A stretch of 64,000 nucleotides of DNA. Source: Dacryopinax spathularia. Taxonomy: Eukaryota; Basidiomycota; Dacrymycetes; Dacrymycetales; Dacrymycetaceae. Positions within the stretch are counted from its first letter, which is position 1, and each line of letters opens with the position of its first letter. A program made the translations under genes and the position numbers. Under the pieces are notes generated by a model. That model searched no databases, was not told the DNA's origin, and worked only from the letters and a program-made list of their open reading frames with translations. The stretch lies in contig JBBPFI010000013.1 of NCBI GenBank assembly GCA_037974965.1, forward strand, positions 620,001 to 684,000, written 5' to 3'. Of this stretch, positions 10,117-64,000 are shown in pieces.

Positions 10117-11163
10117 CTAGCAAACTTGCTGCTTCGGGCATAGATTCAAGCCCAGCCGTTCGACAGGAATCGTATAATCGAGCTGTATGCGCAGGATTTC
10201 GATGCAGGACGGGAGGTTGCACTTCCCGCTATTGGCATGGAAGAAGGCTGCACCGAATCGCATAGCTTGTTCGAGCTCCGCGATGAACGTGCGTGTGATA
10301 CGAATCGTAGAGGGGAGATTGGCCAAGAAAGCCTTCCAAAAGCGGTCTTCGATGTGCGACGCGTTCGGATATTGCTTGTATCCTTCGCCCGCGAGAAGAC
10401 TGGGCAGGTCGCACAGGATCCACTGGAGGAAACAGAGGTCGAAGCCGAGAGGTACTTCGAGCAACTCGGCTTCCCAGTCGACCAAACCCGTAACCCTTCC
10501 GTGTTCGTCCACGAAGATGTTCGTAAAGTGCAGATCGCCATTGCTGATGGCCGCGGGAAGACAGTCGAACACCTGGAGAGTGTCCAACAACTCTCGGAAA
10601 TCGTCCAGATAAGGCGCGAGGAGAAGATCTGTCGACTTGGCTGCCTTCTCCAGGTTGGTGCGTACCGTGCGCTTGAAGGCGGATGGTGCGGACTTGCCGG
10701 GTACACAGCACTTGCCCAGCAAAGTTCCGAGACCCTCCGCGGTGAGAGGTAGACAGTTGATGTACTCGTCCTTGCAGCTGAACTCGGATAGCGACATGCC
10801 AGGGATACGCGACATCTCGTACGCTAACAGAGACCCCTTGCCATATTCCGGCAAGGTATACTCCGTGAGCAGACGCGCTTTTGGAACGAGGTCGCCGAGC
10901 AATCCCCGGGCAGTCTCGAGCACAGAAGTGTTCAGAGGTCGATCAGGCTTGCGCAACTGGAGGATCACTTCTGATACTGTGTTCACCCCGGTGAAGCTGA
11001 CCAAGTACGTCGTGCTGCTGTACCCTTGGACGGCGCATTCCGCGAGCCCCGTCAGGTACTGCGCCTTGTCCGGATACGCAGTCCGCACAATGTCGACGGC
11101 TTCGTAGAAAAAGTGACCGAGCATCGTCTTGGCCGTCGAGCAGACGTTGGTCGTCTCTCGCAA
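10117..11163 (-). CDS. APH-fold small-molecule kinase (aminoglycoside phosphotransferase-like)
   Basis: This protein of about 335-348 residues has the aminoglycoside/choline kinase fold. The C-lobe carries a catalytic-loop motif ISNGDLHFTNIF (Brenner motif, usually HGDLHxxN, so the first His is Asn here) followed by GLVDWEAE, the metal-binding DxE/D segment. The family phosphorylates hydroxyls of small molecules. In agaricomycetes it is a large, mostly uncharacterised group often annotated as antibiotic phosphotransferase, but the substrate cannot be read from sequence. The stop is at 10,117. The 5' end is uncertain: the open frame begins at a TTG at 11,163, an in-frame ATG lies at 11,124, and a TAG just upstream could be a splice acceptor of an unseen first exon. 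The glycine-rich loop and the conserved Lys of the N-lobe are not obvious, which fits a missing first exon. Confidence 0.75.
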   Translation of the reverse strand: MRETTNVCSTAKTMLGHFFYEAVDIVRTAYPDKAQYLTGLAECAVQGYSSTTYLVSFTGVNTVSEVILQLRKPDRPLNTSVLETARGLLGDLVPKARLLTEYTLPEYGKGSLLAYEMSRIPGMSLSEFSCKDEYINCLPLTAEGLGTLLGKCCVPGKSAPSAFKRTVRTNLEKAAKSTDLLLAPYLDDFRELLDTLQVFDCLPAAISNGDLHFTNIFVDEHGRVTGLVDWEAELLEVPLGFDLCFLQWILCDLPSLLAGEGYKQYPNASHIEDRFWKAFLANLPSTIRITRTFIAELEQAMRFGAAFFHANSGKCNLPSCIEILRIQLDYTIPVERLGLNLCPKQQVC

Positions 11164-11751
11164 GCCGTTGACATTGAGCTACGAGGCCTTCATAACTCGC
11201 CAAGACCGAGCGAAGCAAGAATCGCCTTCCTGAATTGGAGGCTCAAAGAGATCGTGTGACGACAAGTCCGCGTGATTCTCGATGGGTCGCGAGGCTGGTC
11301 TGCGTTCCTGGTAACATAGGATCCGCCAATCAGCCGGCGTAAATCCGACCAGTAACATTCCGATCTCTATTACAAAAGGTTTTCCAACCACGAAAGAGAC
11401 GATTGAGAGACAATGACGATAGTGTCGAAATCCATGCTGTTGTGATGTCGACTAACGATGCCGGAAGCTCGGTGGCTGATGCCGAGAGTGCCACCCATCC
11501 ATATCACCCATCAAAAAGTGCGTTGCAGCCAGTCAAGTCTGCATCTCTACAACACCCAGAACGACTCTCTGCTCGCGGACGACGAAGAAGACCAAGAATC
11601 TTCCACACTTGCACTGCCGTCCATCCTCCCGGGTCGTCTTCTGATCACGTCCGTGTGAACTCCGGTAGAATGATGCGCTGTCATCATCACCCACTTCAAT
11701 CGATAACGATGCGCCATTATTTGCCATTGTTCATCATTCACGACGGAGGGC
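11164..11751. other. Region between kinase and coiled-coil gene
   Basis: It may hold a missing 5' exon of the minus-strand kinase. A minus-strand frame at 11,179-11,391, with an internal ATG beginning MLLVGFTPADW, runs up to the TAG just before the kinase frame. It also holds the promoter of the plus-strand gene at 11,752. No other structure was seen. Confidence 0.4.
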
Positions 11752-16319: not shown

Positions 16320-17271
16320 ACCAAAAGCGACTCAGCCACAGAAGCCTGCCCTTCATTCCATACCATCGGACACCCGCGTGCTCACTTTTTGGTAGGGGCC
16401 AATAGGGTCGCGTTCTGGGCCTTCTGGGGAATGTCTGCTCCCAAGTCCACACGGGCATGGCAGAGATAATTCAGCGCATTCAATGCGATGACAACTTCAG
16501 GGTGTAGACAGGGATGATATCCTTCGTATGAATGAAATACAGCATCGCCACAACGGGTAGGTTGCTAGTGAGGAATGTGTGCAATGCCCGAGGTGAAGAG
16601 CGACGTATGTAGATATTCTCGGGAGATATGCGGAGGGCGGCGCTTCGGGAACAGACGAGTGTGGGAAATGTGAGAAATTGCGGGACTGTGGCAGCAAGGT
16701 TCGGCGCGGGAGCGGGGGTCGGATCGCACGAGTTCTGTGTGCCAAAGATTCGGTATAGAAGAGGAGAAGCGAAGAAGCTTTTGCCCGGTCGAGACAGGAA
16801 TTTTCCCTTTTCACTTTCTCACAAAGTTCGTGCTTCTTCCCGTGGTCGCTGACAACGTCCTTTTCCCCGCCTTCTTTCTCTGTCCACACGCTGAGGTTTC
16901 TTCCTCCGAAGAAGGGGATTGTTTGATCAGGAAAACGAGGGACCGACGCCACGTACCGAGGATCTGGTACGGATCGTCGCCTCATCTCGTCACCGCTCAT
17001 CCGTCCCTCTTTTACCACTCCTCCACATCTCCCCCGTTCTCCTCCCTCGCTCCCTTCCCCTTCTCCCCCGCCCCCGCTCTCCGTCCTGTCGTGCATACCA
17101 GGCCTGTCACCGTTCTCGGACAGAGCCCGCCCCCGCACACCGAATAGATCGCCCACTCCAACCCGATCAGGCACAGGCAACCTGCGCATCCTCAGCACAG
17201 ACACCAACATCCGGCCCGCGGGTCCACTCCCGCACCAGCACTGGACGCTCGCCCTCGCAGGCCCACCTCCA
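16320..17271. other. Upstream region of the double-BTB gene
   Basis: It begins with the right target duplication of the transposon. Long frames on the minus strand (16,497-17,447) and plus strand overlap one another and the BTB 5' end, have no recognisable domain and look like shadows of GC-rich DNA. About 16,990-17,160 is pyrimidine-rich, as expected for the BTB promoter or leader. Confidence 0.5.
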
Positions 17272-19146
17272 ATGGGATCATCAACTGAGGACTTGCACTC
17301 GCCCGTGCATGCCGTGCACGGGCTCGCAATCAACGATGCTTCGAGTGTGGCCACTACCCGGCCGGGAAGCAGGCTCGACGTCGTCGCTGAGGAATTCCCG
17401 CTCCCACCGCCGCTATTCGGCACTGCTGCAGAGGATGCGGACGTCATCCTTCGCTCGAAGGACGGTGTAGACCTCTACGCACACGGGATCATGCTCAAGC
17501 GCGCGTCGCCCGTGTTCGCGAGCAGCCTGAGCGAGCTAGTTTCAGAAGTCCCTGTGTTGAATATCGACGCGGACGGGCGGACGATCGACACCCTCCTCCA
17601 ATACATCTACCCCGATTGCCGACCAGAGCTCGGCGGCGACTTCGATGCCTTCCTCGCCGTCCTCCAGCTGGCGGTCGTCTACCAGGTCGGCCATGTCATG
17701 CAGATGCTCCGGCAGATGCTCGTCACGCCCGACTTCCTCCAGCAGTACCCAATCCGAATCTATGCCGCGGCCACGCGATGGAGGTTCAACGAAGAAGCCG
17801 AGATCGCCGCTGAGGCTACTGGCAAACTCGACCTAGCCCAAGTAGGAGAGAAGGAAGTGGGCAACATCAGCGCAACCGACCTGGTCAAGCTCATGGCCCG
17901 CCACAGGAGGAGGAAGGGCGATATCCTCGAGGCGCTCAAGGGGTGGAAGAACGCCTTGTGCAAGACGTGCCAGGGCATGCCGGGCGATAGCTGGAGCATG
18001 CGGTACTACGTTCGGGCGGTGGATGAGATCAAGAAGCGTCCGGCGACGGACGTGATCTTCAGCGAGGAGTTCATCAACCAGGAGACGAATAAGAGCATAT
18101 GCCCGGAATGCGACAACTACTTCACGCTGAGTACAAGGTTGAGGGAGCTCAAGCAGGCGGCGACGCATAGTATGAGGAGGCATTCGCCTTGTGCGCACTC
18201 TTTCACATTGTACATGCGGCATATACTGACTCTTCCTCCAGCGTACTCCCGCAAGTCTGTTCAGAGCACCGCATCGACTATTTCTCCTATGACGCCTATT
18301 CCATCCACCCCTCAATTCGACAACATCTTCTCCGAAGGCGACTGCATCCTCCGCTCGATCGACTCGCAAGACATCCGCGTCTACCGACGAATCCTTATCG
18401 AAGCGTCGACATTCTGGAAGCACCTCTTCTCCCTCCCGCAATCCCAGCCCGATGTCGACCCATCCGACCCAGAGAGCGCTGTCCCGATCGTCGACTGCAC
18501 GGAGCGCGGGCGCACACTCAAGCTCCTCCTGCAGCTTATCTACCCTGTTCCCAAACCTCAGTTCCGCACTTTCGCCCAGATTGAGCCGGTGCTCGAAGCG
18601 GCTCACAAATTCGAGATGGATGCTGCGCTCCAGCATCTCGCCGGTATCCTTCGCGAGCCTCATTTCATCCAGCTCGACCCCGTGCGCGTATACGCCCTCG
18701 CATGCAGGTACGAGCTGCCCGACCTCGCGCGACTCGCATCGAGCTACACGCTCCGGTCCGACCTCGAACAAACGGCGGAAGAGTCCGTCTTCGGCCTCTC
18801 CGCAGTCTCCTTCCTCCGCCTGCTCCAATTCCGCGACACGCGCGCCGCCCAAATAGCCGCCATCCTGACCGAACGCTCCCCGCCCTCCCCATGCGAACAA
18901 TGCAAGATCGCCTGGGCGTCCAACTGGCTCCGCCTCGCCCTCGAAGAAGTCCGCCGCCGACCGGTCTCGGACGCTATTTTCTCTCTGAGCTTCGTGACGA
19001 AGAGCTTTGATGTTGAGCAGGTCAGGCGGAGCTTCGACAGGATCGGGTATCATCAGTGCAACAATATCTTCAATATTGCGGACCATGATTGGCTGCAGGA
19101 GCTGAAGAAGAAGATCGATCAACTGCCGGAGTCGCTCGATCCTTGA
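17272..19146 (+). CDS. Double BTB/POZ domain protein, about 607-624 aa
   Basis: The protein contains two BTB/POZ modules in a row. The first starts near residue 55 (EDADVILRSKDGVDLYAHGIML, then FASSLSEL). The second starts near residue 350 (EGDCILRSIDSQDIRVYRRILI, then FWKHLFSLP). Each is followed by a helical region ending with a paired-Cys CKTCQG or CEQCK element and a repeated tail (RYYVRAVDEIKKRP...VIFSEEF versus LRLALEEVRRRP...IFSLSF), so the protein is an internal duplication. BTB domains dimerise or recruit Cullin-3. In mushrooms this family is expanded and mostly uncharacterised. An intron at 18,191-18,241 (51 nt, GTGCGC, ACTGAC branch, TCCAG) is probable although it keeps the frame open; removing it gives 607 residues. 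Confidence 0.88.
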   Translation: MGSSTEDLHSPVHAVHGLAINDASSVATTRPGSRLDVVAEEFPLPPPLFGTAAEDADVILRSKDGVDLYAHGIMLKRASPVFASSLSELVSEVPVLNIDADGRTIDTLLQYIYPDCRPELGGDFDAFLAVLQLAVVYQVGHVMQMLRQMLVTPDFLQQYPIRIYAAATRWRFNEEAEIAAEATGKLDLAQVGEKEVGNISATDLVKLMARHRRRKGDILEALKGWKNALCKTCQGMPGDSWSMRYYVRAVDEIKKRPATDVIFSEEFINQETNKSICPECDNYFTLSTRLRELKQAATHSMRRHSPCAHSFTLYMRHILTLPPAYSRKSVQSTASTISPMTPIPSTPQFDNIFSEGDCILRSIDSQDIRVYRRILIEASTFWKHLFSLPQSQPDVDPSDPESAVPIVDCTERGRTLKLLLQLIYPVPKPQFRTFAQIEPVLEAAHKFEMDAALQHLAGILREPHFIQLDPVRVYALACRYELPDLARLASSYTLRSDLEQTAEESVFGLSAVSFLRLLQFRDTRAAQIAAILTERSPPSPCEQCKIAWASNWLRLALEEVRRRPVSDAIFSLSFVTKSFDVEQVRRSFDRIGYHQCNNIFNIADHDWLQELKKKIDQLPESLDP

Positions 19147-20074: not shown

Positions 20075-23000
20075 ATGGCAAACCCAAAAGCGGCCCATTA
20101 TGAGCAGCAGCTGTTGGCTGCGATGTGCCGCGGCGCGTGGGCGGATTTGGAGCCGGGCAAGTCGCCTAAGGCGGTTTGGCTCACTTGGAATGAGTTGATT
20201 AGGAAGTATAAGAAACATAATCCCGACTCAGGTGCGTCTTTCAGGTTATCAGATTGTGGAGAGTATGTGTATTGAAATCCGTGTAGGACTGGCGACTGTT
20301 GCCATGCAAACGCAAACCTTGGCTCTGCTAATCGCGAGGCATCACCCGGACCCGCCAGAAGAAGCTCTGCAGAGCATGCCCTCCAGCATCGGAAAAGTCC
20401 AACTCGATCTGGACGGCGACCTCGAAGGCGTACAAGGCGGGCTCGAAGTCGGGTCAGAATGCAAGCTAGAGCCCGGGAGCAAGAGCGAGACAGACGGGAA
20501 CGTTGAAGAGCTCCGCGGGATGCAGGAGAAGGCTCAGGCGTCCGATTCGATCAAGATGGTCGAACTGTATTATGCTTATGCGCGAGGAGAGCTGGATCGG
20601 TGTCTGGAGCTGGTTGGGAGCGTTAACCTAGACAGTGCTCCGCCCGAACGAACACAGACACGAACTTCTGCTGGGAGCAGAGCGCATAACGTCAAGCTTT
20701 CTCTGACCGAGCGGATCGAGAGTATCACCCATTCCGGAAGTGTGCAAAGCGCTTCGCCAGCTGGGTCGATTCTTTCGCGGAAGACCATTGTGGATCCGAA
20801 ACGAGCCTGGTGGACTATCGAGCGCGTGAGGACACGCTGCCTGGAAGGGATGGCCTGTGAGGAAGTGAAGAACGTACCTGCCGCGTTGCGGGCGTACGAA
20901 GCAGGAACCGGACTGTTGGAGGATTTGGGATTTAGGAAACCCGAAAATTCGGCTCAGAAGAATGAGGCATTTTCACAATATCGGGAGCTCTGGAGATGGG
21001 CAGAACGGCTCTTATGGAGAGCGTCGTTGGTCTCTGCACGTATAAGGTGAGTAATCGAACCCTGGACGTATCACATATGCCTGATATCTTGCAGCTCAAT
21101 GCCGCACGCCCTTCAAATTCTCCGGTCGTATCATCTCTGCAGCCAATGGTGGGCCGCGGCCTTCCGCCCCTTCCACCGCTCCAAAGCCTACTCCCTCTAC
21201 ATCCGCGCCCTCTGCTTCGCCTCCCCGTTGGATCCCGAAACGAACGCCATTCGACCAACCGCGACAATCTCACTCGCTGCCTGGACTCAGGAGGCCAAAG
21301 ACGCTCTCCATGAGTATAGAAATATCTTGCAGGCTACTACTGTCTTCCCTAGAGCAGGGCAGGTGAATACGCGGGTGGTGGATTTTGCTGATCTGTGCAT
21401 GGCTGTGTGGGAGAAAGGAGGGGAGAGCGAGGATGAGGCGCCCTGGGTCATCGATGTAATTATTCTGTCCCAGTCATCTCAAGTGCCAAACTCACGTGCA
21501 TATAGCTCATGTGGTGGGGAACAACCCTTACGTTCCACTCCCATCGGATTCTTCGGCATCTGACGAGACTCCTCGTCTCAGTTGGCGAGATCGACGAAGC
21601 AAAACGCGTCTTCCGGCTTTACGTCCAGCTGGTGACCAAAGCCCGCGAAACCTCAGCAGGCGACGTATCCCTCCAACTCAAGCGTCGACCAACAGAAGAA
21701 GCCGCTGCTCCGCCCTCAGAAATCGCGCAGGACGAGGGCGAACTGGACCAACTAGGGGCGGGCAAAGACGCGGACGGAGATAGGACATTCGTTTCTGCCC
21801 TTGTCTTCGGCATTAGGATGTTGAGCAGGTGGGCGGAGACGGTGGAGGATGGGAAGGAGGCGTGGAAGATGGCCGAGCTTGGGGACTCGATTCTCAGCGC
21901 ATCGGACGGCAGGAGAGACCAAGGGCTGCAAGCGAGGTTGAAGACTGCGTCTGGGATAGTGAAGAGGACACAGGCAGCCATCGGTAGGACTTGCACCTTG
22001 GATCCATGCCAGCATGTTTGACCGCATGAGCAGAGATGGAGCCGGAAACTCGGCCAAAGCACCAATCCGCCGCCCAGGAACTTCTCACAACCTCACTGAA
22101 GCTCGACTCCACCGCCGACACACTGTACCACCTCGCCCATCTTCAAGCCGAATTACGTGATATCAACTCCGCCGTACTCACAGCTAAGCAAGCAGTCGAA
22201 AGAGACCCACGAGAAGTGCGAGCATGGCATCTTCTCGCCCTTCTCCTCACTGCGCAAGGGGACTATAATGGCGCTCTTGCTGTTATCAAGCTGGGCTTGG
22301 AAGAAGTTGCAGCGCAGCAAGAAATCGAGCTTGCCAAAGAGACCGCTCTGAACCCATCTCTCCCGCAAGTCGAGGGTGTCTCGTCAAGAGACTTTGCGGG
22401 CAGCGGATCAAAACGGAATTCGGCTACTGTCAGTGGACTGCCCGAATCAAGCGGTACTCCAATGGTCGCAGCATCCCCCGAACAGGCGCTTCTGGATTCA
22501 GATTCTATCCCACTGGGATACACGCTGCTGAAACCTGTGGCGAGCAGGAGACCTTCAAGAACTGAGCGATTCGAAGCTGCCCTCCAGCTGTTGATCACCC
22601 GGAACGCGATCGTGGAGCTGCTGGAAGGACCGGAAAGTGCAAACGCAAACTGGGTGGACATCTTCGCTTTCTTCTCGGAACAGTGTCCGATCCCTATGGA
22701 CCGCACGCAATCACGGAGACACTCATTCGGTATGCCCATGCTTCTCGCATTTAAGGGCACCTCTAACCTCTCTGCAGATACTGTGCCTACCCCGTTACCG
22801 CCACCTGAACCTGTCCGACCAGTAGAAACGCTGTCAACGGTGCAGGAAGTCTCAGCAATGCAAGTCCCGCAGGTTGTAACACACGAGCCTTCCGAACCAC
22901 CTCCGGAACATTCGAACGGCAACACGCCTCGACAATCCAGCGAGCAAGGCAAATTCTTGCAGCCCAGGCCTCCCGGGTTCAAAGGCCAGCAGCGTATACG

Positions 23001-23923
23001 GTCTGGTGGCAGAGATGAGAAGCGGGTCAACTTGGACGAACTGCGCATGAAGTCCCAGAAACTGCTGCAAGGAGGGCAAAAGCAGCTGCAGACACTGTCG
23101 AGGAAAATCATCCACCGGGATGCGCAAGGTCACCGAATACCGCGATCAAGATCAGTACCAGGTATGTCTGTCACTGCAAAGTAGGAGTAAATAGTTAACT
23201 CTGTCCCAGATTTCAACAAGCCACCACCGTCCGCTTCTGTATACCAAGCATCATCCATCCACTCACGAGTGAGACGGTATCCTTCTCCTGGCTCCATGCG
23301 AGGATCAATGCGCGGCGGCTTGTCTCCGGCAAGGCTCGAACCGCCGTCGCCGTCCATCGTCGCCTCCGAGCCGTCAGGCCATACCGGTCGAACGCAGCAC
23401 GAGACAAGGATCTTGTCCGACCTGTGGTTGATGTCGGCTGCCACGTTCCGCAGGATGGGACAGATCGAGCAGGCGCACGGTGCGATCCAAGAAGCCGAGG
23501 TTATTGACCCTGAAAACCCCAACGTGTGGGTACAGGTACGTTCCTCTCGCCAAAGGTTTTATAGCACATCACGAACCGACGACTGTATAGCTTGGCCTTT
23601 ACTTCGCCGCATTGGACAATCGCCGACTAGCGATCGAGTCTTTCCACAAGGCGCTCGTGATCGACCCAGACCACGTCCCCGCCTCCGTTCATCTGGCACA
23701 GCAGTACCTGCAAAACGACGCCGCCGATCTCGCCTCCGGCCTGTTGATGGCCATCACCCAAGGTTCAGGCTGGGACGTCGCCGAAGCATGGTACTTCCTT
23801 GCTAAGGCGTGCGAGAAGCTCAATCGCAGGGAGAGGGAGCGCGAGTGCCTCGTGTATGCGCTCAGACTCGAGGAGAGCAAGCCGATTCGTCCACTTGGCA
23901 AGGCCGTGCCGCGCAGTCTCTGA
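20075..23923 (+). CDS. YPP1: TTC7/YPP1-type TPR scaffold of the PI4-kinase complex
   Basis: This looks like the fungal counterpart of TTC7/Ypp1, which with Efr3 anchors the phosphatidylinositol 4-kinase Stt4 at the plasma membrane. Exons: 20075-20231, 20287-21046, 21095-21455, 21506-21983, 22034-23161, 23210-23535 and 23591-23923; every junction closes, giving 1180 residues. Inside exon 5 a GTATGC...CTAAC...CTGCAG intron at 22,730-22,777 (48 nt, frame-neutral) is very likely, giving 1164. Helical TPR units occur at the N-terminus, at residues about 450-560 (VGEIDEAKRVFRLYV) and densely at the C-terminus (AHGAIQEAEVIDPENPNVWVQ, LAIESFHKALVIDPDHVPA). The end, CLVYALRLEESKPIRPL, parallels TTC7's CFLTALELEASSPVLPF. 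A basic Ser/Pro-rich linker (about 850-970) separates the TPR blocks. Its 3' end converges on TAF11 with 104 bp between stops. Confidence 0.85.
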
Positions 23924-26677: not shown

Positions 26678-29468
26678 ATGCACACGCACGGTCCCTCCCC
26701 CAGCAGCCAGGTGCCGATGAGCAGGAGGCTCAGCCAACTGAAGCAGTCGGCCTATCCTGGGACAAGCAGTGGGACAGCAAGCAGCAGCAGCAGTGCACCG
26801 ACAACTCCAGTTTCTAACAATGCCAACCGCAAGCTTTCAATCACTATCGGTGGGGTCAATGGGCATGGTCAGACTGCCACGCCGGGCTCAGCGACGAGGG
26901 CGAGGACCAAGTCGCAGGGCCAGGCAGGCAGCCTAGAAAGCCCGGCTGGCAAGAAGGGGAGAACGCTTGAGGGTGCAATGCAGCGGCTCATCAGCCAACT
27001 GAAGAAGTGAGCGATTGTAATTGAGGGCGTCTTGGAGTTGGCTGATCCCTTGTGATGCCACTAGACGCGATAACTATGCGTTCTTCCTGCAGCCTGTGGA
27101 CGAGAAGGAGGTGCCTGGGTACAGGAACTTCATAAAGCACCCCATGGATCTAGGGACGATGAGCCAGAAGGTTGATAAAGGCTGGTATAAGTCGCTCGAT
27201 GAATTCAAGGTGTGTAACCAGCCAGCCACGCAATGGTCCGAGGTGCTTATTGGATCGTCGACACAGAATGACTTTCTCCTTGTGACGAACAATGCAAAGA
27301 CGTTCAACCCGCCCACAACCATCTTTCATACCGAAGCGGTGAAACTGGAGAAATATGGGTTAGAGGCTATCAACAAGGCTCAGCAGCGGCTCGCCCAGGC
27401 CGAGCAGGAAGCTCAGGCTTTGGCGGAAGCCCAAGCTGCTGCTATGGCTGCCCAAGCCGAATACGACATGGAACACCAAGACGATCTCATCAAGGTAGAG
27501 AGTGACGGAGAGGCTGAGGAAGCCGTTCGACAGGGATCTCTTGACCGCTTGAGCCGATCGGTATCGGCTGCCCCTACACCTGGCGGCATGTCTGCCCAAA
27601 TGCGGCTAGGCAAACGAAGAGGTGGATATCGCCCTAGAGGGGCACCAAAGAGTCTCGATGAGCTCTGGAAGATACCTGGTCCGGAGACAGGCATCGGCGC
27701 CTTTCCTTATGGGAGTGATTTGGCGGGCTTGATGCTCGAATTCGAGATTATGGGTGTGTAAATGCATTGCTCGAGGCTCAAATAATCGTGCCTAAATAAG
27801 TAATAGGTCGGAAAACGTTGACCAAGAAGGAGCGATTGAAACTGGAACGACATCCCTTACGACGCCCAATTGCTCCAGATGGAAGCATAGATTACACTGA
27901 GAGTATGTCATCTACTCCTGGTTGTGAACAAACAGTCTAACCATTTTCAAGTGGAGGATCCGTTTGCTTTCCTGTCTGTCTTCCTACCTGAGAAGTTTGG
28001 TGCCCTCGAACTAGAGGTTGTACCACCTGCTTCGACAAGCAGCGCAGCTCGTCAAAAATCCGAACCACCCTCATACCCTACTGCATACCCCTCCGTATCC
28101 GTCCCGCCAACCATCATTTCCATGAAGTCTGCCGCAGAAAATGAGTCTGTGGAGGATGACGCCGTGCATTGGTCGATACAGCGTCCAGGGATGAACAGCT
28201 ATCGCACGTACGTCGCAAGAGAGGAGGAAGAGCTCCGCAAGCAATCTGAGCGGGATGGACAAAGCAAGGAGGTCCAGGTTCGGGAACCTGCACCAATCGA
28301 CTGGGGCAGCTTCGGCACACTCCCGATGAGCTGGGCTGTAGGCGATCCTACATGGTACTCCGACGAATCCAAGCTGCATATGAAGATCCGGGAGGACATC
28401 CGCAAGGCAGCCGAGAAGCTACGATCCGGGAGTAAGAGGAAAGCACGAGATATGCAGCCCGCAAACGACCGGAAGAAGGAGCTTGAGAAGGCTGCCTTCG
28501 GCGGCGAAGCTTGGCTTCGCGATGTCGTTTACGGTGGTCCGGAAGGCATCGCTTATGTGCAAAGTGTGGCTTCATTTGTTGATAAGGCGATGAGGTATGC
28601 GAAGCAAGAACGGGAAGAACCTGCTTCCAACGAAAAGGAAGAACCCCATTCGGGCTCCGCTATCAAGCTCGAGGAGGATGTCGACATGGACGCTTCTCCT
28701 GAACGACCACTCAAGCGGAGGCGAGTGGAGACAGAGGCGGTGGACGAAAGCGTCCTACTTCCTCACTCGCTGCCAGATTATGTCTCCGACACGGTCATCG
28801 ACCCACTTACGAGTGGCTTGCACGAGATAATTGATCGCATCGGCGAGGCTATAGAAGACCCGGACCGTCCTCTTCCACGGCATCTTCCGCAACTGGGCAA
28901 GCACCTCGAGAATTCGGTCAACCTTGTCCCTGGGGCAGAACAGCGGTTAGCTGAGCTGACCAGCGTTGTTGGCGAGCAACTCGACATGGGTGCTGTCTTA
29001 CGGGCGCCGGATGAATTCTTCTTCAAGGACGAGGAGTGGACTGAACGTAGTAAGAAGGCTCCAGGGCAGGACAATGCCAGCACTTCAAGCACAACTTCCG
29101 CGGCAAATGGTGTCAACCTGCCTCCTGCACCTCCCGCCTACATCAATTATGGACTTGCCAAAGCGGCAGAAACGATGCTGCGACTATCACGGTCCGCTCC
29201 GAGCGCTAGTGCCTCCACAACTTCCACGCAGGGATCGGACGGTACCGTGGTGCAGGATGGCGTGGCTGGCGCAGAAGATGGCGAGAAGTCGAGTCAACAC
29301 GTGGCTGACAGCGACAAGGAAGATCCTGAGATGCGGAAACTCAGGCTGAACTTGTTGACGATGACCAGGCATGTTCCCCTCGCTGAGCTGGCTCCCCTCA
29401 AACCGGAGCTCATCCCGGAGCATGTGAGACATTTATTCCCAGCTAGAATTGGCGGCGAGGGCGCGTGA
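26678..29468 (+). CDS. BRD7/BRD9-like single-bromodomain protein, 857 aa
   Basis: This is a chromatin reader with one acetyl-lysine-binding bromodomain. Exons 26678-27006, 27065-27209, 27267-27753, 27807-27902 and 27952-29468 close to 857 residues. The Ser/Thr-rich head is followed by a bromodomain at about 110-200: FFLQPVDEKEVPGYRNFIKHPMDLGTM, then NDFLLVTNNAKTFNPPTTIFHTEA, with the conserved Asn in the TFN motif. An Ala/Gln coiled coil, a basic RRGGYRPRGAP patch and a long C-terminal region follow. The latter includes SWAVGDPTWYSDESKL and an acidic stretch with a KRRR signal. Domain position and bromodomain sequence best resemble BRD7/BRD9, subunits of SWI/SNF-type remodellers in animals. 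Membership of such a complex here is inference. Confidence 0.85.
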
Positions 29469-30185: not shown

Positions 30186-31977
<1,792 letters not shown>

Positions 31978-32871: not shown

Positions 32872-34787
32872 ATGCGTTCCCTCATCTCTGCTGCTCTTTC
32901 CGCGGCCGTGTTCGCTGCAGACGGCCTCGCCGCCGCCGTGGAAAAGCGAGTGACATATGCCGAGGCTTCCGCCATCGCTGCGAGTAACATCGCGCCTGCC
33001 CTGGCTGCCGCTCCCACAGGCGCGTACGCTAGCGACGACCCCAACGACTCGTACTGGGCAACTTTCCAAGAGGAGACACCCGAACCGATCCGCTCAAGGC
33101 TGGGCCTCGGTCCACTGGGCGCCGACATCCTTGGTCCTACCAATGTCCCGATCGAGGAGCAATATGCGGATCTGTTGGCGCCACCATCTACCGATGGAGG
33201 GACCGTGTGAGTGATCCGAATGGCGGGAAATGCCATTGCTGACGGATACTTAGTTTGAATTCGAAATGGTCTTTCAGTCAGTCGAAGAACCGGTTGCAGA
33301 GCGGCGGTTGGGCTCGTCAACAGACCGGTATGTTGCCTCTTTTTTCTCATGCTCGTGGCTGACCAAACCGCAGAGACTGATATGCCCATCGCCACCACTA
33401 TGGCGGGCGTGGACATGCGGTTGACCGCTGGTTCTATCCGGTCAGTATCGGCCAGCAGATGAAGTCTATTCTTGCACCTTATCTACATTTAGTGAGCTAC
33501 ACTGGCATACCGCGGCGGAGGTGAGAATGTGCGACATACATTGGGAACTTCGCTAATTATAGTCTTCAGTGGTCATACATGCTGGCTGTTAGTATTCGCT
33601 ATCCCTCGCCACCAGTGCGGCTGATAGTAGATGCGCGCAGGGAAGCGCCCGTATCACTGCTGTCAACGCAGACGGGCAAAACTATATCCAGGACATTGTG
33701 AGCTGGTTCTTTTCCTTCCTTGCAACTTCGTTAATGACTCACGTTGCAGTATCCGGGAGATCTCTGTAAGAACGACGTGGTTTACCCCACATTGGCCCTT
33801 GCCTGATTCCATGGTCTCGGTTCATAGGGTACTTCCCCGCTGGCGTACCGCACTCCATCCAAGGCTTGAACGACACTGCCGATGGCTGTGAATTCCTGCT
33901 GGTCTTCGACAATGGCGCCTTCAGCGAAGATTCCACCTTCATGGTAACCGACTGGATTGCCCATACCCCGAAAGAAGTGCTGGCGAAGAACTTCAAGACC
34001 GACATTTCTATGTTCGATCACATCCCGGAGAATGCGCTGTACATCTTCCCGGCTCCTGTTCCGCCTTCCATCGAAGTCGACTGCGAGCTTGCCGACGGGC
34101 CGCTCGGCACCGTCCCGTCCCCTTACGCCTATCACTTATCCCAGGTTCCCGGAACCCCGCTGGAAGGCGGATCAGTCAAGGTGGTCGATAGCCGGACCTT
34201 CCCTATCTCAACGACAATCTCTGCTGCAGAGGTTACAGTTGGTCCTGGTGGACTGCGGGAGCTTCACGTGAGTCTGACATGCCATGTCCCGCAATCTAGC
34301 TGAGACAAGAGAATCAGTGGCACCCGACGGAACCGGAGTGGACCTACTTCATGTAAGTCTCCTGGATAAGAGCGAGGGGCTATCGCTCACATTATACCAG
34401 TGAGGGTGAGGCTCGCATCACCTCATTCGCTTCAACGGCCGCTGCACGCACTTTCACCTACCAGGCGGGTGACATCGCATACATCCCTCCATCTTGTAGG
34501 TCACCTTCTCTACATGAACACAGATGCTAACGCAGCTGGCAGATGGCCATTATGTCGAGAACCTGGGTAACGGCACGTTGAAGTTCCTTGAGATCTTCAA
34601 CTCCGCCTATTACCAGGATATCAGCTTGTCGCAGTGGCTCGCGCTCACTCCTCCTGAGCTCGTTTCGGTATGGGCTGCTCCATCCGTTTCTTCCCGTTCC
34701 ACTCCGCTCACGAACCGAAAGGCTCACCTGCAACTTCCCATCGAATTCGTCATGAGTCTCAACAAGACCAAAGCCGTTGTTGTGTGA
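32872..34787 (+). CDS. OXDC: Secreted bicupin oxalate decarboxylase
   Basis: The enzyme converts oxalate to formate and CO2 with Mn, normally outside the cell. Twelve exons close to 451 residues: 32872-33206, 33254-33327, 33374-33440, 33493-33520, 33570-33587, 33641-33697, 33750-33765, 33828-34267, 34318-34352, 34401-34495, 34543-34667 and 34722-34787. A signal peptide covers residues 1-22 ([20 protein letters not shown]). Cupin 1 has LHWHTAAEW near 160-169 and PHSIQG; cupin 2 has [10 protein letters not shown] near 344-353 and GHYVENLGN, the His/His/Glu/His Mn ligands in both. The lid loop reads FSEDSTF, matching the SENST loop with the catalytic Glu of bacterial OxdC. This argues for decarboxylase rather than oxidase activity. 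AATAAA-type sequence at about 34,899 may be its polyadenylation signal. Confidence 0.94.
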
Positions 34788-34970: not shown

Positions 34971-35462
34971 TCACAAAAGTAGAGCACCGCCTATCTGGAA
35001 GTTACGGTCAGTCCAAAGCTCCCACGACATGATGCTGCAACGCACCTGCTCCAGCTCGGCATCGATAATGTCCCCGTCCTCCATCTCCATCATCTTGGGA
35101 GTCATGTCCGCTTGTAACCTGCGATCATCGTATAGGAAGCGAAGCGTGCCCTTCTTCTTGTTGAAGCGTTTCTGCGACCGCGAATGGACGGAATCAGGGC
35201 GGCTCAACTTGCATGATGAGACCGACTCACGTAGGCCGCATCGAAAAGCTTTCCAAACTGGGTTGTGGCGCTTACGGCTACCTGGCATTCTTGACCGAGA
35301 GGTTAGCGCATGCTACGGGACGAATAGTGAACAGCAGTTCGTACCCTCGCCCTGACATTGGACCTTCAACTGCAGCTTTTTCTTCTGCTGTACCTGAGAG
35401 GGCTGCTGTTCTTCCGATCGTGTCTCATCAGCCCCTTCATCGTCCTCCTCGTACGATGGCAT
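34971..35462 (-). CDS. SUMO-like modifier A (tandem pair), GG plus ALLL tail
   Basis: This is a ubiquitin-fold protein of the SUMO type, 104 residues, from four exons: 35345-35462, 35231-35277, 35046-35171 and 34971-34994. A 32-residue acidic/Gln-rich head precedes the beta-grasp: KLQLKVQCQGE, then FGKLFDAAYKRFN, then GTLRFLYDDRRLQADMTP, then MEMEDGDIIDAELEQIGG. That last segment closely follows canonical SUMO (RFLFDGRRLQ...MEDGD.ID..LEQ.GG). After the di-glycine come ALLL and a stop, so a Ulp-type protease would have to expose GG for conjugation. The central helix is divergent: the usual LMKAYCKRQG is replaced. This suggests a specialised paralogue rather than the housekeeping SUMO. It converges on the oxalate decarboxylase gene. 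All introns are canonical and phases close. Confidence 0.85.
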
Positions 35463-35743
35463 GTTTGCTGGAAGTGAGTGTGGGAATATACTGCGATATG
35501 GAGGACAATTGCGGAGTGACACCACCTTCGGCCCAAACCCACTTTTAGCACACGCGACCCTGGACGCGTCGCGTTTATGGGGTAAAAGCAGTTACGTAAT
35601 CATTCCAGTCGGGGGTCATGCTGTCCACGCTCTGGCCACAAACCACCGACATCGGCGGGAGAAGTTGCATAGACCACCATCTTTCATATTTCGGACAACA
35701 TGGAATACACTACGGGGCGAGCATAGACCTCGATTTCTCATCG

Positions 35744-36309
35744 CTAACCACCAAGCTAGCAACAATGTCAGTATCCACCAGCAAATTCAGCGCATTGCAG
35801 GACCGAACCTGCTCCAGATGCGCCTGCACCTCATCGTCGATCTCCATGTTCAAGCTCGCGGCCGTGTCATCTGCTCGGATTCTTTCTCCATCGTAAGTGA
35901 ATCGGAGCGTGCCCGGCTGAATATTGAACTTTTTCTGTTCATCCACATTAGCGATCGCTGCCTAGCTGTCAAATCTGAAACTCGGCAACCTCCACGAAAG
36001 AGAAGATCTTAGAAAACTTCAGATCGACAGGCACTTCAACCGTGGTCTCTAAGGTGCGCAAAATCAGAGGTCTGAGCTGAAGATAGCTTGAGGACGCCTA
36101 CTTTGGCCATCGAAGTTGACCACAAACTGGATCTTGCGTCGGATAGTCCGGGTGGATCCAACCTGGCCATTCCCTTGCGATGCATCTGGCCCACGATTGT
36201 TCGTCGATCCACGGTCATGTGCCGAAGCGAGGGTCGTGCGCTGCGATTGAGCTTCCTGACTGTCGGGAACCTCTTCGTTGCGAAGGCGGGAGCGGCCGGT
36301 GGAGGACAT
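35744..36309 (-). CDS. SUMO-like modifier B (tandem pair), stop directly after GG
   Basis: This is a second SUMO-like gene 281 bp upstream of A on the same strand. Exons are 36102-36309, 35990-36048, 35809-35934 and 35744-35755, giving 134 residues. The head of about 58 residues is Ser/Arg/Gln-rich. The fold then reads IQFVVNFDGQKTTVEVPVDL, FSKIFSFVEKKFN, GTLRFTYDGERIRADDT, NMEIDDEVQAHLEQLGG, and stops. The three intron positions are the same as in A, and the third exon is 126 nt in both, with 21 of 42 residues identical. The di-glycine is the natural C-terminus, so no processing protease would be needed. The first donor of intron 2 (GAG/GTTGCC) and that of intron 3 (CAG/GTTCGG) are weaker than usual. 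They are chosen because they keep alignment with A. Expression is unproven. Confidence 0.75.
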
Positions 36310-38688
36310 GGTCTGCAAGTGAAGCGAGCGGTAAGTTGATGAGGGACTTGATGGTATCGGACAAGAAGGGGGTGAAAATGGATGGCGTCGGCCATGGGAT
36401 GCATGTATGATCAGTGACTCCCCATCACTGCCATCACGGAATCAGCCTGGTCGGGAAGCTGGATCTTCCAGAAGGTACGTTGTCGGCCATTGCTGCGGAG
36501 TTAGAGCGTGCACCGCCCGTGCATTTCCGCCAGGCCGCTTTGTATATGTGCCCGCTATGCAAATAATTGCATCTAGGTACGTCAGACCGCAGAAAGCATG
36601 GCCCTCCCTCAACAGCTATCAGCTACAATACCCGTCGCGCCCGACATCCAAGAGAGGTTGGCCTGGCCTCAGCCGCTGCATTCACCCTTGGTCCAGCGTC
36701 GTCTTCGCACAGGCCATATCGACCGCGCACAGGCCAACTAAGGTTGACCACCCAGTACATTCACACGAGATTTATGCTACCTCATCTCAACAAAGCCTCT
36801 CATTGCCAGTTGCAGTTGTGCTGATGCTGTTTCAGACAAAGTTCCCTCCCGTCCTGACCCATTTCCTGCTTGGTCCGCCATAGGACTCCAAATCGTGCTT
36901 CTTGTGACTAGTAGTCAGCGTGCTTTAACAAGGTCAATGAATTAGTGTTCTGCCCGCAATGCACAGGACCACGCTGGCCGGTTTGGGTATGCTGGCTAGA
37001 CTGCAAAGAGAGCCATGGGGAACGCCGCCTGGTTAGTCATCCCTATACATGATCATTATTGCTGCATAATGGGCTGCCGGTGCAATGTTGCCGATTACAT
37101 TGCTTAGATTGGTATTCGAAAGTTCTCCACCTTACGGCTCGGTGACAACTACGAGTTACACAGGTTGTCTGAGCTCGACATCGATTTACATTTCCAACTG
37201 ATATCAGGCCGAAGACAGTATTACAAGCATTGTTAACAAGAACAGTCATATTTGTTGCCGTTCACTTGACCATCCACTCGACGATTCAGCCGATAAGAGA
37301 AGCGTGTAGTCTATGCGTAATGCACAACCCACAGGAACAAACCTATGAAAATATGCGCAATCATCCAGCATATCCCATACATAGCTAATCTGGGCAACCC
37401 TTGTCGGCCACCTGCTTCTAATCTCATCCGACTTTCAACTTGATGCAAACGGGCACGTCAGCCTACTCGGCCCAGCGACAGCGACAATTCAGGACTGTGC
37501 TCAATACAGGCCGACCCAAGTTGCAGATCGTAGAGCCTCCGCGAAGGTTGCACATGAAGAGTGAAATGACGTGCTAGATCAGGAAGATTTCAAGCCCTCC
37601 TTGTTCAAGTCTAGTGCCCCAGAACTGGGGTGCATCGACCGTGCGGAGAGCTCCAGCTCGGGCATCGGGATCGGGTCGGACCCATGCTAGCCTCACAATG
37701 TAAAGCCGGTTAAGCCAGAGATGTGGTCGGGAGCGTCCGGGACAGGAGAAGCGTGAGAAGATATGGTATTTGGATGGTCGAATTGGCGACGCGATAATAC
37801 GTAAAGACGCGTAATAGGATTCGTGCAGAGATAGATCCGCTCTCACATCTTGCCAGGGTTGGAGATGCAGCATCCGGTAGATGGTGAACCGCCGGTGACC
37901 TCTCCCCGAACCACCGTCCCGTAGATCAAACACACACTCCATAAATAGAACGCAAATTTTCAGGGACGCCTCTTGGCCCCAGACAACGAGCATCGTCGCC
38001 TCGTGGAAGCTCTTGGAAACAATAGGGTTCGCAGCTAGCAAGTCATCGTCGACCGTGTGCAGTCCCCGCAGAGAAGGGTCCACTAGTGCGAAGAGCATAT
38101 GCATGTGAAGTGATGTTGACAGCGGAATGAAGCACCGGTTATGCGCCCGCGATGGCTCTCGCTTAGGTATCGAGATCTGGTCGGGCATGGCCACACTTCA
38201 GATGCTCCGTTTCAGTCCGAAGGTGACGCGTCCTGGGACGCGTACGCTTTGGGGCATACAGTCACTGTTCCAGATGAGTACATTGCGTTTATATTGTCGC
38301 CCAGAGACCTTGAACACCGCGACTTCAACGCAAGCAGTCATTGTTCAGAAAAGCGCTGGTAGAGAGCCGTTGGTCTGGCACGAAAACAAGATCCGCAGAA
38401 AGAGCGCCCATGCGGAAGCAAATCTGGGTCAGCTTGCACCGCCACTAAGATTCTTGACTAAATGACGTAGCGCGAATGGCCTGGAATTTGCGCGAGTACC
38501 GTCCCAGCCATCCGCTCACAAACGGCGCGTCGATTGATCAGCGGCGAACACGAATCGCTACTTTCGACTCATCCACCGTACTGGCATCCATCGGTTTAGA
38601 ATCCAACCTCTTAGGCTACTTTGCTGTGGGCTAGCTTGTGGCGTCAACAAAACAAATTCTTGGAAATACTGACGACCGAGCTAATAAC
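36310..38688. other. Gene-free interval between SUMO-like B and the ZIP gene
   Basis: Nothing recognisable was found. The longest frame (37,574-38,194 minus, 206 residues) has no domain, repeats or convincing start. The sequence is of moderate GC and shows no terminal repeats. Confidence 0.5.
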
Positions 38689-53643: not shown

Positions 53644-55311
53644 CTACGAGAACTTCCACCTATTCCCACAATTCACACAAGTCACAAACGTCGTCATCGG
53701 CTCATCCGCGCTCCTCGTCTGCGCCTGCGTATACCTCGTCTTCCGCTGCCCACAGCGGAAACACTTGAACGCGTCCGTCTCTGCGCCCGCTTCCTCCGCG
53801 CCTTTCGCTTTGAACAGGTTGACCTCTTCGAGTCGTTTCGCTTCGGCTTTGCGTTCTTCCGAGGCCATTTCCTGCGCTCGTCGAATCAGCACCATTCCTC
53901 TCTCTCCCCCACCTCTCCTCCTCATTTCCCCAAGTCCACTACTGCCCCACCGGCGCGAGCGGAGGAGGAGGAGGGAAGGAGGATGGAAGGATAAGCAAGG
54001 ACGCACCTGAACACTCATCGTACACAGCCTCCCAACGCTCAAATCCCCACTAACGACCGCCTCCCTCAGCCCCGGATTCGTCTTCTCCTTCAAGTTCAAG
54101 TACAGACTCCGAATCTTGGAGCGATAGGGGTTGCCGGAATTGCCGTTGTTTTGCGTCAGGACTTGTTTCTCGATTTGGCGGGCGCGTTGGAGGATCTGTT
54201 CGGATGCTAGCGGGGAGGGGTTAGCTGGGTTCACGCGGCCAGGGTTGCTCCGCCCGAAGAGCAGGAAAAGAGCAGGATCAAGAAGGGCGGAGGAGGGATG
54301 ATAGTGGACGAGGGGCAGAAGGGAGGACGCAGGGGCTGAGCCGGGAAAGCAAGAGGTGAAGAGGGCACAGCAGAGTATGGAGAGGTAGAAGCGAGTAGGA
54401 GCAAAGACGCACGAGCACCACTATCACTCGCCAACGCATCATACAGCATCTCAATACACTTCTTCCGCGTCTCGTCCCCCATATCATCAATCACGATCCT
54501 GTCCGTCAGATGCGTCCTGACCGCGCTCGGCGAGAGCGGCGTGTGCGGGCCGGCGGAGGGGGGAGGGGGGGACTTGGAATTGCTTGCTGCTGCTGCTGAG
54601 GCTGAGGGGGTGCTGGTGTTGGTTGAGAGGGTCGGCTTGGCTGCGTGTTCGTCAGCTCCAGCTCGTCTATAGCTGCCACACGGCAGGAGGGAAAGTTGGG
54701 AGGTAGGGTGAGGGAGAGGGCAGAGGGCAGAGGGGAGAGGGGAGAGGGAAGAGGGAGGAGGGAGGAGAGACGTACATGGCACAGGCTTCTTAGCGCTCCC
54801 TCCTGCGGAGGGCGACCCACCAGCCTTCTTCTGCCCCTCGACCTCGGCTTTCCATTTCCTCACTACTTCTTTAGCGGCCTCCGCGACCCCGGGGTCGGCG
54901 TGTTGTCGCAGCTTGCCGACTGCTAGGCCGGCTTTCGTTTCCTACACCACGCCGAAAAGGTCAGCAAGAGTACACTAAGCCCAGGGAAGGAGTGGAAGAA
55001 GGGGATAGAGGAGAAGGCAGCATATATGCGCCAAGAAAGAAGAAGAAGCCACATATATGCGGCTCCAAAGGAGAAGGAGAAAGACGAGGGACGCACCTTC
55101 AACAACTCCTCATTAACACCATGATTCTTCAACCTCAACAACAATCCCACAGTATCCTGTCCCAAACAAAACCCAAGAACGGATGAGCATACCCCTCCCT
55201 CTATCAACACAACGCGCAAGTAGTATGAAAGAGACGCACGGAATGCCTAGGACCTCTGGACGACTCGAGCAGGTCTTTCACGAGTCGCTTGAATTCTGCT
55301 TTGTCGCCCAT
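53644..55311 (-). CDS. DST1: Transcription elongation factor TFIIS
   Basis: TFIIS stimulates RNA cleavage by stalled RNA polymerase II. Exons: 55240-55311, 55097-55156, 54413-54941 (or split), 54007-54206 and 53644-53871. Read this way the protein is 362 residues. A GTACGT donor at 54,775 suggests a further frame-neutral intron of about 110 nt in the linker, giving about 325, near the usual 300. The LW domain (GDKAEFKRLVKDLL, LLLRLKNHGVNEELLK, ETKAGLAVGKLRQH) is followed by a Ser/Ala/Pro linker, domain II (IVIDDMGDETRKKCIEMLYDALA, AYRSKIRSLYLNLKEKTNPGL-type) and the C-terminal zinc ribbon CFRCGQRKT...QTRSADEPMTTF...CVNCGNRWKFS. The catalytic Asp-Glu in RSADEP and four zinc Cys are present. 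It is divergent from the EOS1-like gene. Confidence 0.92.
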
Positions 55312-62138: not shown

Positions 62139-62542
62139 CCCCTCGCTCCCGGGCCAACCTTTCTCTTACAAGTCCGGAATGATCTCTTTTCCTCGCTAGT
62201 TATTTGTGATGCTCCGAGGTCTCTCTGTCAAAGTGTTGTACACGATACCATCATACGTCCCCCTGAAGGTTCTAAATGAGGTTGTAACGAATATATCCTG
62301 TGCACTTGCCTGTCCGTCCGTGCGAAAGCCGTCGTCGGAGATAGTTACGATAAATGACGCTCGAGGCGTCGGCGTAATGTCCTCCTCGGACCGAGGCCGA
62401 CCGGGCGGGGGGTACTCCCATCATCCGGCTGACTGACACGCAGCCGCATTACGACCATCACTGCCTGCTTCATGTGCACTTCGTCCTCTTGATATACAGC
62501 GCAAGACTCGTGGGAGGAGATACTTGAGAGAGATAGAGAAGG
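62139..62542. other. Intergenic region before the F-box gene
   Basis: No gene or repeat was seen in this 404-bp gap. Confidence 0.5.
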
Positions 62543-64000
62543 ATGGACGACTCTCCACTACGAAGGATCGCTATCTCCGCCCTCCTCTGCGAGCGACCGG
62601 AGCCCCCAACGGGGAGCAACCCGTTCCTCTCCACGTCAGACGCGCCCACACTAGATGAGGTGCGCCAAAAACCACCTATACAAGACCACAGAACCATACT
62701 GACCCCATTGAAGAACATGGCTTTCCGTGCTGGCCCATCCCGTATCCCCATACCTGCTCTCCGACACTCGCCCATGCCTGACCTACGCTCGGAGCGGGAC
62801 AACCTCCTAGCCGACGCTATCGAGCTGGCCGACACGCTCACCAGCATGCTAGAGCAAATCGAACCGCGTCGCTCGATATTCAGTTCCTCTGCGCACGGCC
62901 TGAAGCCGGGCAGCGCAGCGCACGCGACGTACACGCTCGAGTCCAAGTTACACCGCCGGCTGCAGAGGATAAACGAGAGAAGGAACGATGCGCTCGCGCC
63001 TATGTCCCGGCTGCCGGACGACGTCCTCCGGTATATCTTCAGCGTGCCCTCTGTCGAAGGATGGCCCAAATGGGGCCAGTTCTCCGTGCTTGTCTCGCAT
63101 GTCTGTAGGCGGTGGAGAGCGGTTGCGCTGGATACGCCGTGCATGTGGGCGTCTGTGCGGTATGCGAGCAGGCTGAGCGACCCGTTCTCGTCGATGTGGG
63201 ACGAGCTTAATCTTGTCCCCCCTATCACAACGGGCTCGCCTGCGAGGGACTTGACCCACCCGTTCTGGGATCATAGAGGGCATGATGCGACGATGCATAA
63301 GGACGCTACGTTCCTGCAACGATCAAGATCCGCAAGACTCGATATGGAGCTCAACATATTCGAGTACCCCGACCTAGAAGCAGCACCCGTCGAGACATAC
63401 CTCCGCCGGCACCGGGACAGAGCCGCAGACGTCTCTCTCAGCGTGGCCAAGTACTCCACCGGTTCCCTAAAGAAAGTCATGAACCGCCTAGTAGAAGAAG
63501 GCGCAAAACTTCAGCTCCGGAAACTGCGTATCTCCTCCCGGCCCCTGTTGGCCCAGATATTCGACACGAGCATGACCGACTTATTCTCGTACGACATGCC
63601 CAAGCTGGACGAGGTCTTCCTGTCGAACATGCCTCTCCCGGCAAGCTTCGAGCCGAACTACAAGCTTCTCGGGGCGTGCAGGAAGCTCACGCTGCACGCT
63701 TCGCAAGAATCGGGTTTCTCGGGCGATAAGATGCTCGTCCTCCTGGCGGGATGTCCGGAGCTGGTCGAGTTCCGGCTTGTGCTCGATAGGCCTATCGTCG
63801 ATTCTTCGCAGGCGGCGCAGCCGAGAGAACGACTGATCTTGCCCAAAGTAAGATACTATAGTGCCTGTACCGCAAGATGGGGCGCAGATATCGCCTTCCT
63901 GCTCCTGCGCATGCCGAATGTCACCCATCTGGAAGTGCAAAGGGATATAATCAACACCAACGTCGAGCGGGAAGACTACGTCGGCTACCTCAAGGGCTTC
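62543..64000 (+). CDS. F-box protein, partial (runs off the right edge)
   Basis: ATG 62,543 opens an intronless frame that is still open at the window end, 486 codons. An N-terminal helix (SERDNLLADAIELADTLTSMLEQIEPRR) precedes the F-box at about 152-195: MSRLPDDVLRYIFSVPS, then VSHVCRRWRAVALDTPCMW. Downstream are leucine-rich, LRR-like segments such as KLQLRKLRISS, LLGACRKLTLHAS and MPNVTHLEVQRD. This is the standard architecture of the large agaricomycete F-box/LRR family, which links substrates to SCF ubiquitin ligases through Skp1. The substrate is unknown. Confidence 0.88.
   Translation, partial: MDDSPLRRIAISALLCERPEPPTGSNPFLSTSDAPTLDEVRQKPPIQDHRTILTPLKNMAFRAGPSRIPIPALRHSPMPDLRSERDNLLADAIELADTLTSMLEQIEPRRSIFSSSAHGLKPGSAAHATYTLESKLHRRLQRINERRNDALAPMSRLPDDVLRYIFSVPSVEGWPKWGQFSVLVSHVCRRWRAVALDTPCMWASVRYASRLSDPFSSMWDELNLVPPITTGSPARDLTHPFWDHRGHDATMHKDATFLQRSRSARLDMELNIFEYPDLEAAPVETYLRRHRDRAADVSLSVAKYSTGSLKKVMNRLVEEGAKLQLRKLRISSRPLLAQIFDTSMTDLFSYDMPKLDEVFLSNMPLPASFEPNYKLLGACRKLTLHASQESGFSGDKMLVLLAGCPELVEFRLVLDRPIVDSSQAAQPRERLILPKVRYYSACTARWGADIAFLLLRMPNVTHLEVQRDIINTNVEREDYVGYLKGF

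Follow-up and report, generated by a model that had tools for sequence, protein, structure and literature searches.

In yeast, SUMO is encoded by a single gene (PMC5319795), and one SUMO protein is reported from Magnaporthe oryzae (PMC6638150). SUMO paralogs have been ascribed jointly to humans, yeast and Arabidopsis (PMC4327156), a statement that conflicts with the single yeast gene. The sheet face of SUMO carries the contacts with E1, E2 and the proteases, and the SIM groove lies opposite; this groove has been termed the key hallmark of SUMO, and its charged prongs are Lys39 and Lys46 of SUMO1 (PMC12751080). Mutagenesis of yeast Smt3 gave lethal alleles on the SIM surface (F37/I39A, T43D, R47E and R55A) and conditional alleles at K38 (K38E) and K40 (K40E/K40Q) (PMC5319795). 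In plants, the diglycine is conserved in SUMO5 homologues, and in vitro attachment of AtSUMO5 proceeds at a reduced rate (PMC6680281).

The window analyzed here, a 64,000 nt stretch of Dacryopinax spathularia DNA, contains two adjacent SUMO-like genes, A and B (Table 1). A reading made from the sequence alone had described them as a minus-strand pair ending in EQIGG (A) and EQLGG (B), and its coordinates proved exact. The splice phases after exons 1 to 3 are 1,0,0 in both genes. All six introns are GT-AG, are 51–59 nt long and contain a CTRAY motif that starts 16–26 nt before the 3′ end. The three intron positions that had been described as common to A and B are indeed shared, with exons 2 and 3 equal in length, and the identity noted for exon 3 was reproduced (21 of 42 amino acids; 74 of 126 nucleotides). 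Exon 1 of B lies within a stop-to-stop frame (36064–36441) that has no earlier ATG. Intron 2 of B can also be read as 28 nt, with an in-frame exon 3 of 153 nt. This version was rejected for one of 55 nt, which matches the other intron sizes and yields a CTAAT motif.

Table 1. The three SUMO genes and the exons of the tandem pair. Positions refer to the window, except those with a contig prefix.
Feature	Position	Strand	Length	Content
Gene A	34971-35462	minus	108 aa	stop codon ends at 34971
A exon 1	35345..35462	minus	118 nt	ATG at 35462; acidic N-tail, start of beta1
A exon 2	35231..35289	minus	59 nt	beta2 and first part of helix; most SIM-contact positions
A exon 3	35046..35171	minus	126 nt	end of helix to ...LEQ; Rad60-SLD match C13:655058-655153
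A exon 4	34971..34994	minus	24 nt	IGG, then ALLL and stop (cleavable tail)
Gene B	35744-36309	minus	134 aa	ATG starts at 36309
B exon 1	36102..36309	minus	208 nt	N-terminal arm without lysine, then start of beta1
B exon 2	35990..36048	minus	59 nt	beta2 and first part of helix; most SIM-contact positions
B exon 3	35809..35934	minus	126 nt	end of helix to ...LEQ; Rad60-SLD match C13:655821-655934
B exon 4	35744..35755	minus	12 nt	LGG and stop; diglycine without tail
Gene C	C13:530254-530744	minus		canonical SUMO; same contig and strand as A and B, 124 kb from the pair

On the plus strand, a frame of the cupin family (window 33770–34300 and nearby) that resembles oxalate decarboxylase by eye runs toward the 3′ end of A. 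Other frames in the neighborhood match the tubulin (30759–31817), bromodomain (27021–27758), TPR (22030–23181), BTB (16927–19143), TFIIS (53647–54420), F-box-like (62537–64000, just below the cut-off) and APH (10120–11178) families. Among the 20 open frames of the window that were scanned, none matches a SUMO-pathway family.

Both proteins match Pfam Rad60-SLD above its curated cut-off (A, E = 2e-12; B, E = 4.6e-10). The broader ubiquitin Pfam family also exceeds its cut-off for both, with weaker E-values. The best PDB match of A is yeast Smt3 (1.3e-16); for B, a chain carrying SUMO2 twice ranks first (2.6e-9), ahead of a single SUMO (1.8e-7) and Smt3 (2.1e-7). Identification of A or B as a ubiquitin, Nedd8 or Rad60 gene was rejected on these Pfam and PDB searches, in which SUMO-type matches were best, and on the EQxGG ends of both proteins. 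On these matches, A and B are SUMO-family proteins. Behind the diglycine, a precursor tail is present in A and absent in B, and with no residues after GG, B is expected to need no maturation. A should require Ulp processing of its ALLL tail, and B should be encoded already mature. A precursor tail is common in the SUMO family but dispensable: in yeast, deletion of the Smt3 tail had no observed consequence (PMC5319795).

The N-terminal arm of B had been described as a basic, Ser-rich extension of about 58 residues. Its length is 58 amino acids, with nine R, no K, six D/E and nine S; the arm is only mildly basic, so that part of the description was not quite accurate. No lysine precedes the domain in A (26 residues) or in B (56 residues), and the junction of tail and domain reads KKK in A and RRK in B. 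For comparison, one lysine occurs among the 22 N-tail residues of C and three among the first 20 of Smt3. As there is no lysine before the domain, chain formation through the N-tail appears less likely for A and B.

We searched the genome (29.2 Mb, 24 contigs) with Rad60-SLD, scoring 24 of 24 first-look candidates, and obtained 20 stretches. Ten of these form tandem rows on contigs C7 and C12 and were taken as polyubiquitin from the row pattern alone. The other ten include, by translation, A, B and the canonical SUMO gene C (two stretches), together with genes named by reading their translations: two ubiquitin-fusion-like genes and Dsk2-, Rad23-, SF3A1- and Rad60-like genes. The Rad60-like gene (C2:2576112-2576318) is, by this reading, separate from the pair. 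Protein queries with A, B and C found the same three SUMO loci, and C alone also reached the Rad60-like locus (E = 0.002). No SUMO genes beyond A, B and C were found in this genome by profile and protein searches, the six-frame exon search being one that may overlook very divergent or finely split copies. The three loci share a single contig and strand (C13:530254-530744 and C13:654971-656309). The sequence-only reading had judged that neither A nor B looks like the housekeeping SUMO, had asked for a separate canonical gene and had named, as a refuting result, a phylogeny in which one copy is the genome's sole SUMO. Gene C is that canonical gene, and it rules out A or B as the sole SUMO. With C elsewhere on the same contig, the pair constitutes extra genes. 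Pattern matches in records described as viral (101) and prokaryotic (31) contained no confirmed relatives. An NCBIfam search gave nothing useful, and a scan for bacterial-type promoters is uninformative for eukaryotic DNA.

A and B are identical at 32 of 78 domain residues, far beyond a codon-shuffled control (mean 5, maximum 13 in 1000). Identity to Smt3 is 35/78 for A, 24/78 for B and 36/79 for C (aligned columns), and identity to C is 32/79 for A and 26/79 for B. Over 78 codons, dN is 0.64 and dS is 1.20 between A and B, with dS near saturation and the ratio therefore rough. Among the six SUMOs compared, nine residues occur only in A and B and not in C, Smt3, SUMO1 or SUMO2 (in Smt3 numbering, H23K, N25Q, F37V, L45F, M49F, Q56F, G57N, D61G and R93L). 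The 14 other SUMO pairs share between zero and eight exclusive residues, the eight being those of SUMO1 and SUMO2. In a seven-sequence tree, A and B are joined with moderate ultrafast bootstrap support (81) and the branch of B is long; the other nodes are weak (37, 52 and 54). The splice phases of C (0,2,1) are at other positions than those of A and B. In combination, the intron positions common to A and B and absent from C, the nine exclusive residues and the joining node support the earlier proposal of a local duplication followed by strong divergence. Judged by these shared features, A and B descend from one altered ancestor.

The same comparison bears on whether one or both copies are relics, that is, unexpressed or decaying duplicates. 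The long branch of B would fit such decay, as would the drift of core and loop positions described below, and there is a precedent in Verticillium dahliae, in which two SUMO homologs are reported with a transcript at one locus only (PMC10415295). Against this, both frames are open over four exons, all six introns keep GT-AG ends and the branch-like motif, the diglycine is intact in A and B, the identity between them exceeds anything in the shuffled control, and dN is lower than a dS that is itself close to saturation. We consider relics unlikely.

To compare contact surfaces, we used the contact residues tabulated in a mutagenesis study of Smt3 (PMC5319795, Table 1) and an alignment that is ungapped across the domain; an insertion that MAFFT placed in beta1 of B was rejected in favor of it. 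Among 29 E1/E2/Ulp contacts, the number similar to Smt3 is 18 in A and 19 in B, compared with 19 in C, 20 in SUMO1 and 15 in SUMO2. Among 11 SIM/E3 contacts it is 6 in A and 5 in B, compared with 11 in C and 10 in both SUMO1 and SUMO2. Among the 16 core residues it is 11 in A, 10 in B, 15 in C and 14 in both SUMO1 and SUMO2. Four of the 11 SIM contacts are also core positions; at the seven outside the core, similarity to Smt3 is retained at 4 in A, 3 in B, 7 in C and 6 in both SUMO1 and SUMO2.

A within-protein test of SIM against enzyme contacts, by similarity to Smt3, did not reach significance (A, p = 0.27; B, p = 0.055), and the controls in this test point the opposite way (0.91–0.998). 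Measured relative to C, SIM contacts have lost more similarity than enzyme contacts have (permutation p = 0.0009 for A and 0.0001 for B; 0.00004 for both genes together), and relative to C, SUMO1 and SUMO2 the values are 0.0023 and 0.0002, in a permutation of positions that disregards the closeness of SIM residues to each other. A block-shift test that keeps the spacing of the mask gave a weaker result (rank 3 of 77 for A and 1 of 77 for B). In leave-one-out controls, p was 0.046 for SUMO1, 0.77 for SUMO2 and 0.79 for C; given the SUMO1 value, p values near 0.05 mean little here.

Within residues 34–56, the change at SIM positions is −0.56 in A and −0.87 in B, and at non-SIM positions −0.09 and −0.25. 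The loop at residues 57–62 is changed too (−0.29 and −0.56), and residues 63–98 are not (+0.13 and +0.02). Since core residues and this loop have also drifted, part of the change may be general divergence. It had been claimed that the central helix is replaced in both proteins. This was overstated; the helix is not lost, as it aligns without gaps at the same length, but it has been rewritten. From the distribution of the changes, this seems to be mainly a rewrite of the SIM surface, superimposed on a general drift that affects the front half of each protein.

The SIM contacts F37, K38 and K40 are changed in both genes, and T43 and A51 also in B. The counterparts of Smt3 K38 and K40 are alanine and serine in A and glutamate and proline in B. 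Thus, the equivalent of SUMO1 Lys39 (Smt3 K40) is lost in A and B; that of Lys46 (Smt3 R47) is lysine in both, as it is in C, SUMO1 and SUMO2. Other groove positions are also kept, with L or I at Smt3 L48 and R or K at R55. This partial retention would fit A, B or both being ordinary extra copies that supply SUMO by dosage or at particular stages, with nothing special about their readers. Two further observations agree with such copies: A is as similar to Smt3 as C is, and the fold tolerates change, human SUMO1 replacing Smt3 under normal growth (PMC5319795). The SIM surface, where the lethal yeast alleles lie, is nevertheless where A and B have changed most compared with C, and we regard ordinary extra copies as highly unlikely.

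A few enzyme contacts are changed as well: A has E at H92, and B has Q at E90 and V at K27. H92E, as seen in A, and K38E and E90Q, as seen in B, are conditional substitutions in yeast (PMC5319795). The changes at the E1/E2 contacts H92, E90 and K27, the divergence of both proteins from C and the long additional N-terminal arm of B would suit SUMO-like regulators that are not conjugated, and that instead bind Ubc9, Ulp or other proteins non-covalently and modulate conjugation. Yet both retain GG, EQ and an enzyme face at the level of C, for which a protein that does not become conjugated would have less need, and A retains a cleavable tail. Given these retained features, a role as non-conjugated regulators seems rather unlikely.

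We looked for the SUMO-pathway enzymes in the same genome. A yeast Ubc9 query found ten stretches, two of which, at C4:770k, are 59 and 61% identical and were read as Ubc9; the other eight are 33–47% identical, although the lowest E-value of all is that of a stretch on C10 with 38% identity. PF00179 has 22 stretches. Of the seven C48 peptidase stretches, those at C1:2842k and C5:844k were read as Ulp1 and Ulp2, and one at C22:18k is weak. Aos1 was placed by reading at C5:845.7-847.0k. ThiF has 13 stretches, none singled out as Uba2, and the five zf-MIZ (E3 ligase) matches are all sub-threshold. The Aos1-like gene (minus strand) adjoins the Ulp2-like gene (plus strand) at C5:844090-847000, so that two SUMO-pathway genes lie side by side.

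The C48 match at C3:1199565 was rejected as a host SUMO protease, as the same strand has a KDZ transposase match at a distance of about 2 kb; this protease is probably transposon-borne. The matches across C3:1199565-1202503 (C48, Ulp1-like, and KDZ) suggest a transposon with its own SUMO-type protease. KDZ transposase matches are abundant in the genome (52 stretches on many contigs, several with internal stops). Together with the short introns and their CTRAY motifs, this abundance points to a fungal and probably a basidiomycete genome. A link between the A/B pair and transposon-borne SUMO proteases was considered and dropped, the protease-contact face being among the conserved parts of the pair.

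A separate modification system, as the sequence-only reading had suggested, gained no support: there is one close Ubc9 match and, by reading, one Ulp1, one Ulp2 and one Aos1. With this set, A and B probably share the ordinary SUMO enzymes. Our best explanation, held with middling confidence, is that A and B are functional tandem SUMO paralogues beside an ordinary SUMO, served by the ordinary enzymes and poorly read by SIM proteins. The non-significant within-protein test and the drift of the core lower our confidence in it. We infer that both genes are expressed and conjugated, that they bind SIMs weakly and that they have a biological role of the following kind. A and B would be activated by the ordinary E1 (Aos1/Uba2) and Ubc9 and removed by the ordinary Ulp proteases, which is most likely because their enzyme-contact surface is retained to about the same degree as that of ordinary SUMO. 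The groove between strand and helix that reads SIM motifs has been rewritten in part, so poor binding by ordinary SIM readers and by SIM-dependent E3 ligases is expected. As alternative or dampening marks, the two proteins would occupy SUMO sites and recruit either different readers or none of the usual ones.

A bolder form of this explanation, possible but doubtful, is a second, SIM-blind SUMO code, in which A and B are attached in the ordinary way and escape both SIM readers and SIM-dependent ubiquitin ligases, with a supply of B that is independent of Ulp1. If true, SUMO sites could carry marks that bypass the usual read-out or have dedicated readers. A fungus in which a canonical SUMO is accompanied by two copies with a conserved attachment face and an altered reading face would offer separation of function by nature. 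In a simple organism, SUMO functions that depend on SIM readers could then be told apart from those for which attachment suffices.

The residue pattern of A and B appears unusual, as seen in the one genome examined. Among the matches listed from the open-access literature, mostly titles and openings of abstracts, we found no fungal tandem SUMO pair. V. dahliae is likewise a fungus with more than one SUMO homolog; there, the second is one extra locus apart from VdSUMO, no transcript was detected from it, and the available portion of the report describes no tandem pair (PMC10415295). Arabidopsis SUMO3 and SUMO5 and the grass SUMO-like genes are likewise extra copies, partly tandem duplicates (PMC6680281); these diverged copies are plant genes, and no relation to the A/B pair is implied. 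Rad60, Esc2 and NIP45 have the Pfam Rad60-SLD match in common with the pair, whereas A and B each consist of one domain and have a diglycine end. Smt3 shares with the pair the SUMO domain, the EQIGG end (identical in A, EQLGG in B) and many enzyme-contact residues; it differs in the lysines of its N-tail, which A and B lack, and in its precursor tail, which B lacks. The canonical gene C belongs to the same family and shares the contig and strand of A and B. It differs from them in its splice phases and in its SIM contacts, which are Smt3-like at all 11 of 11 positions.
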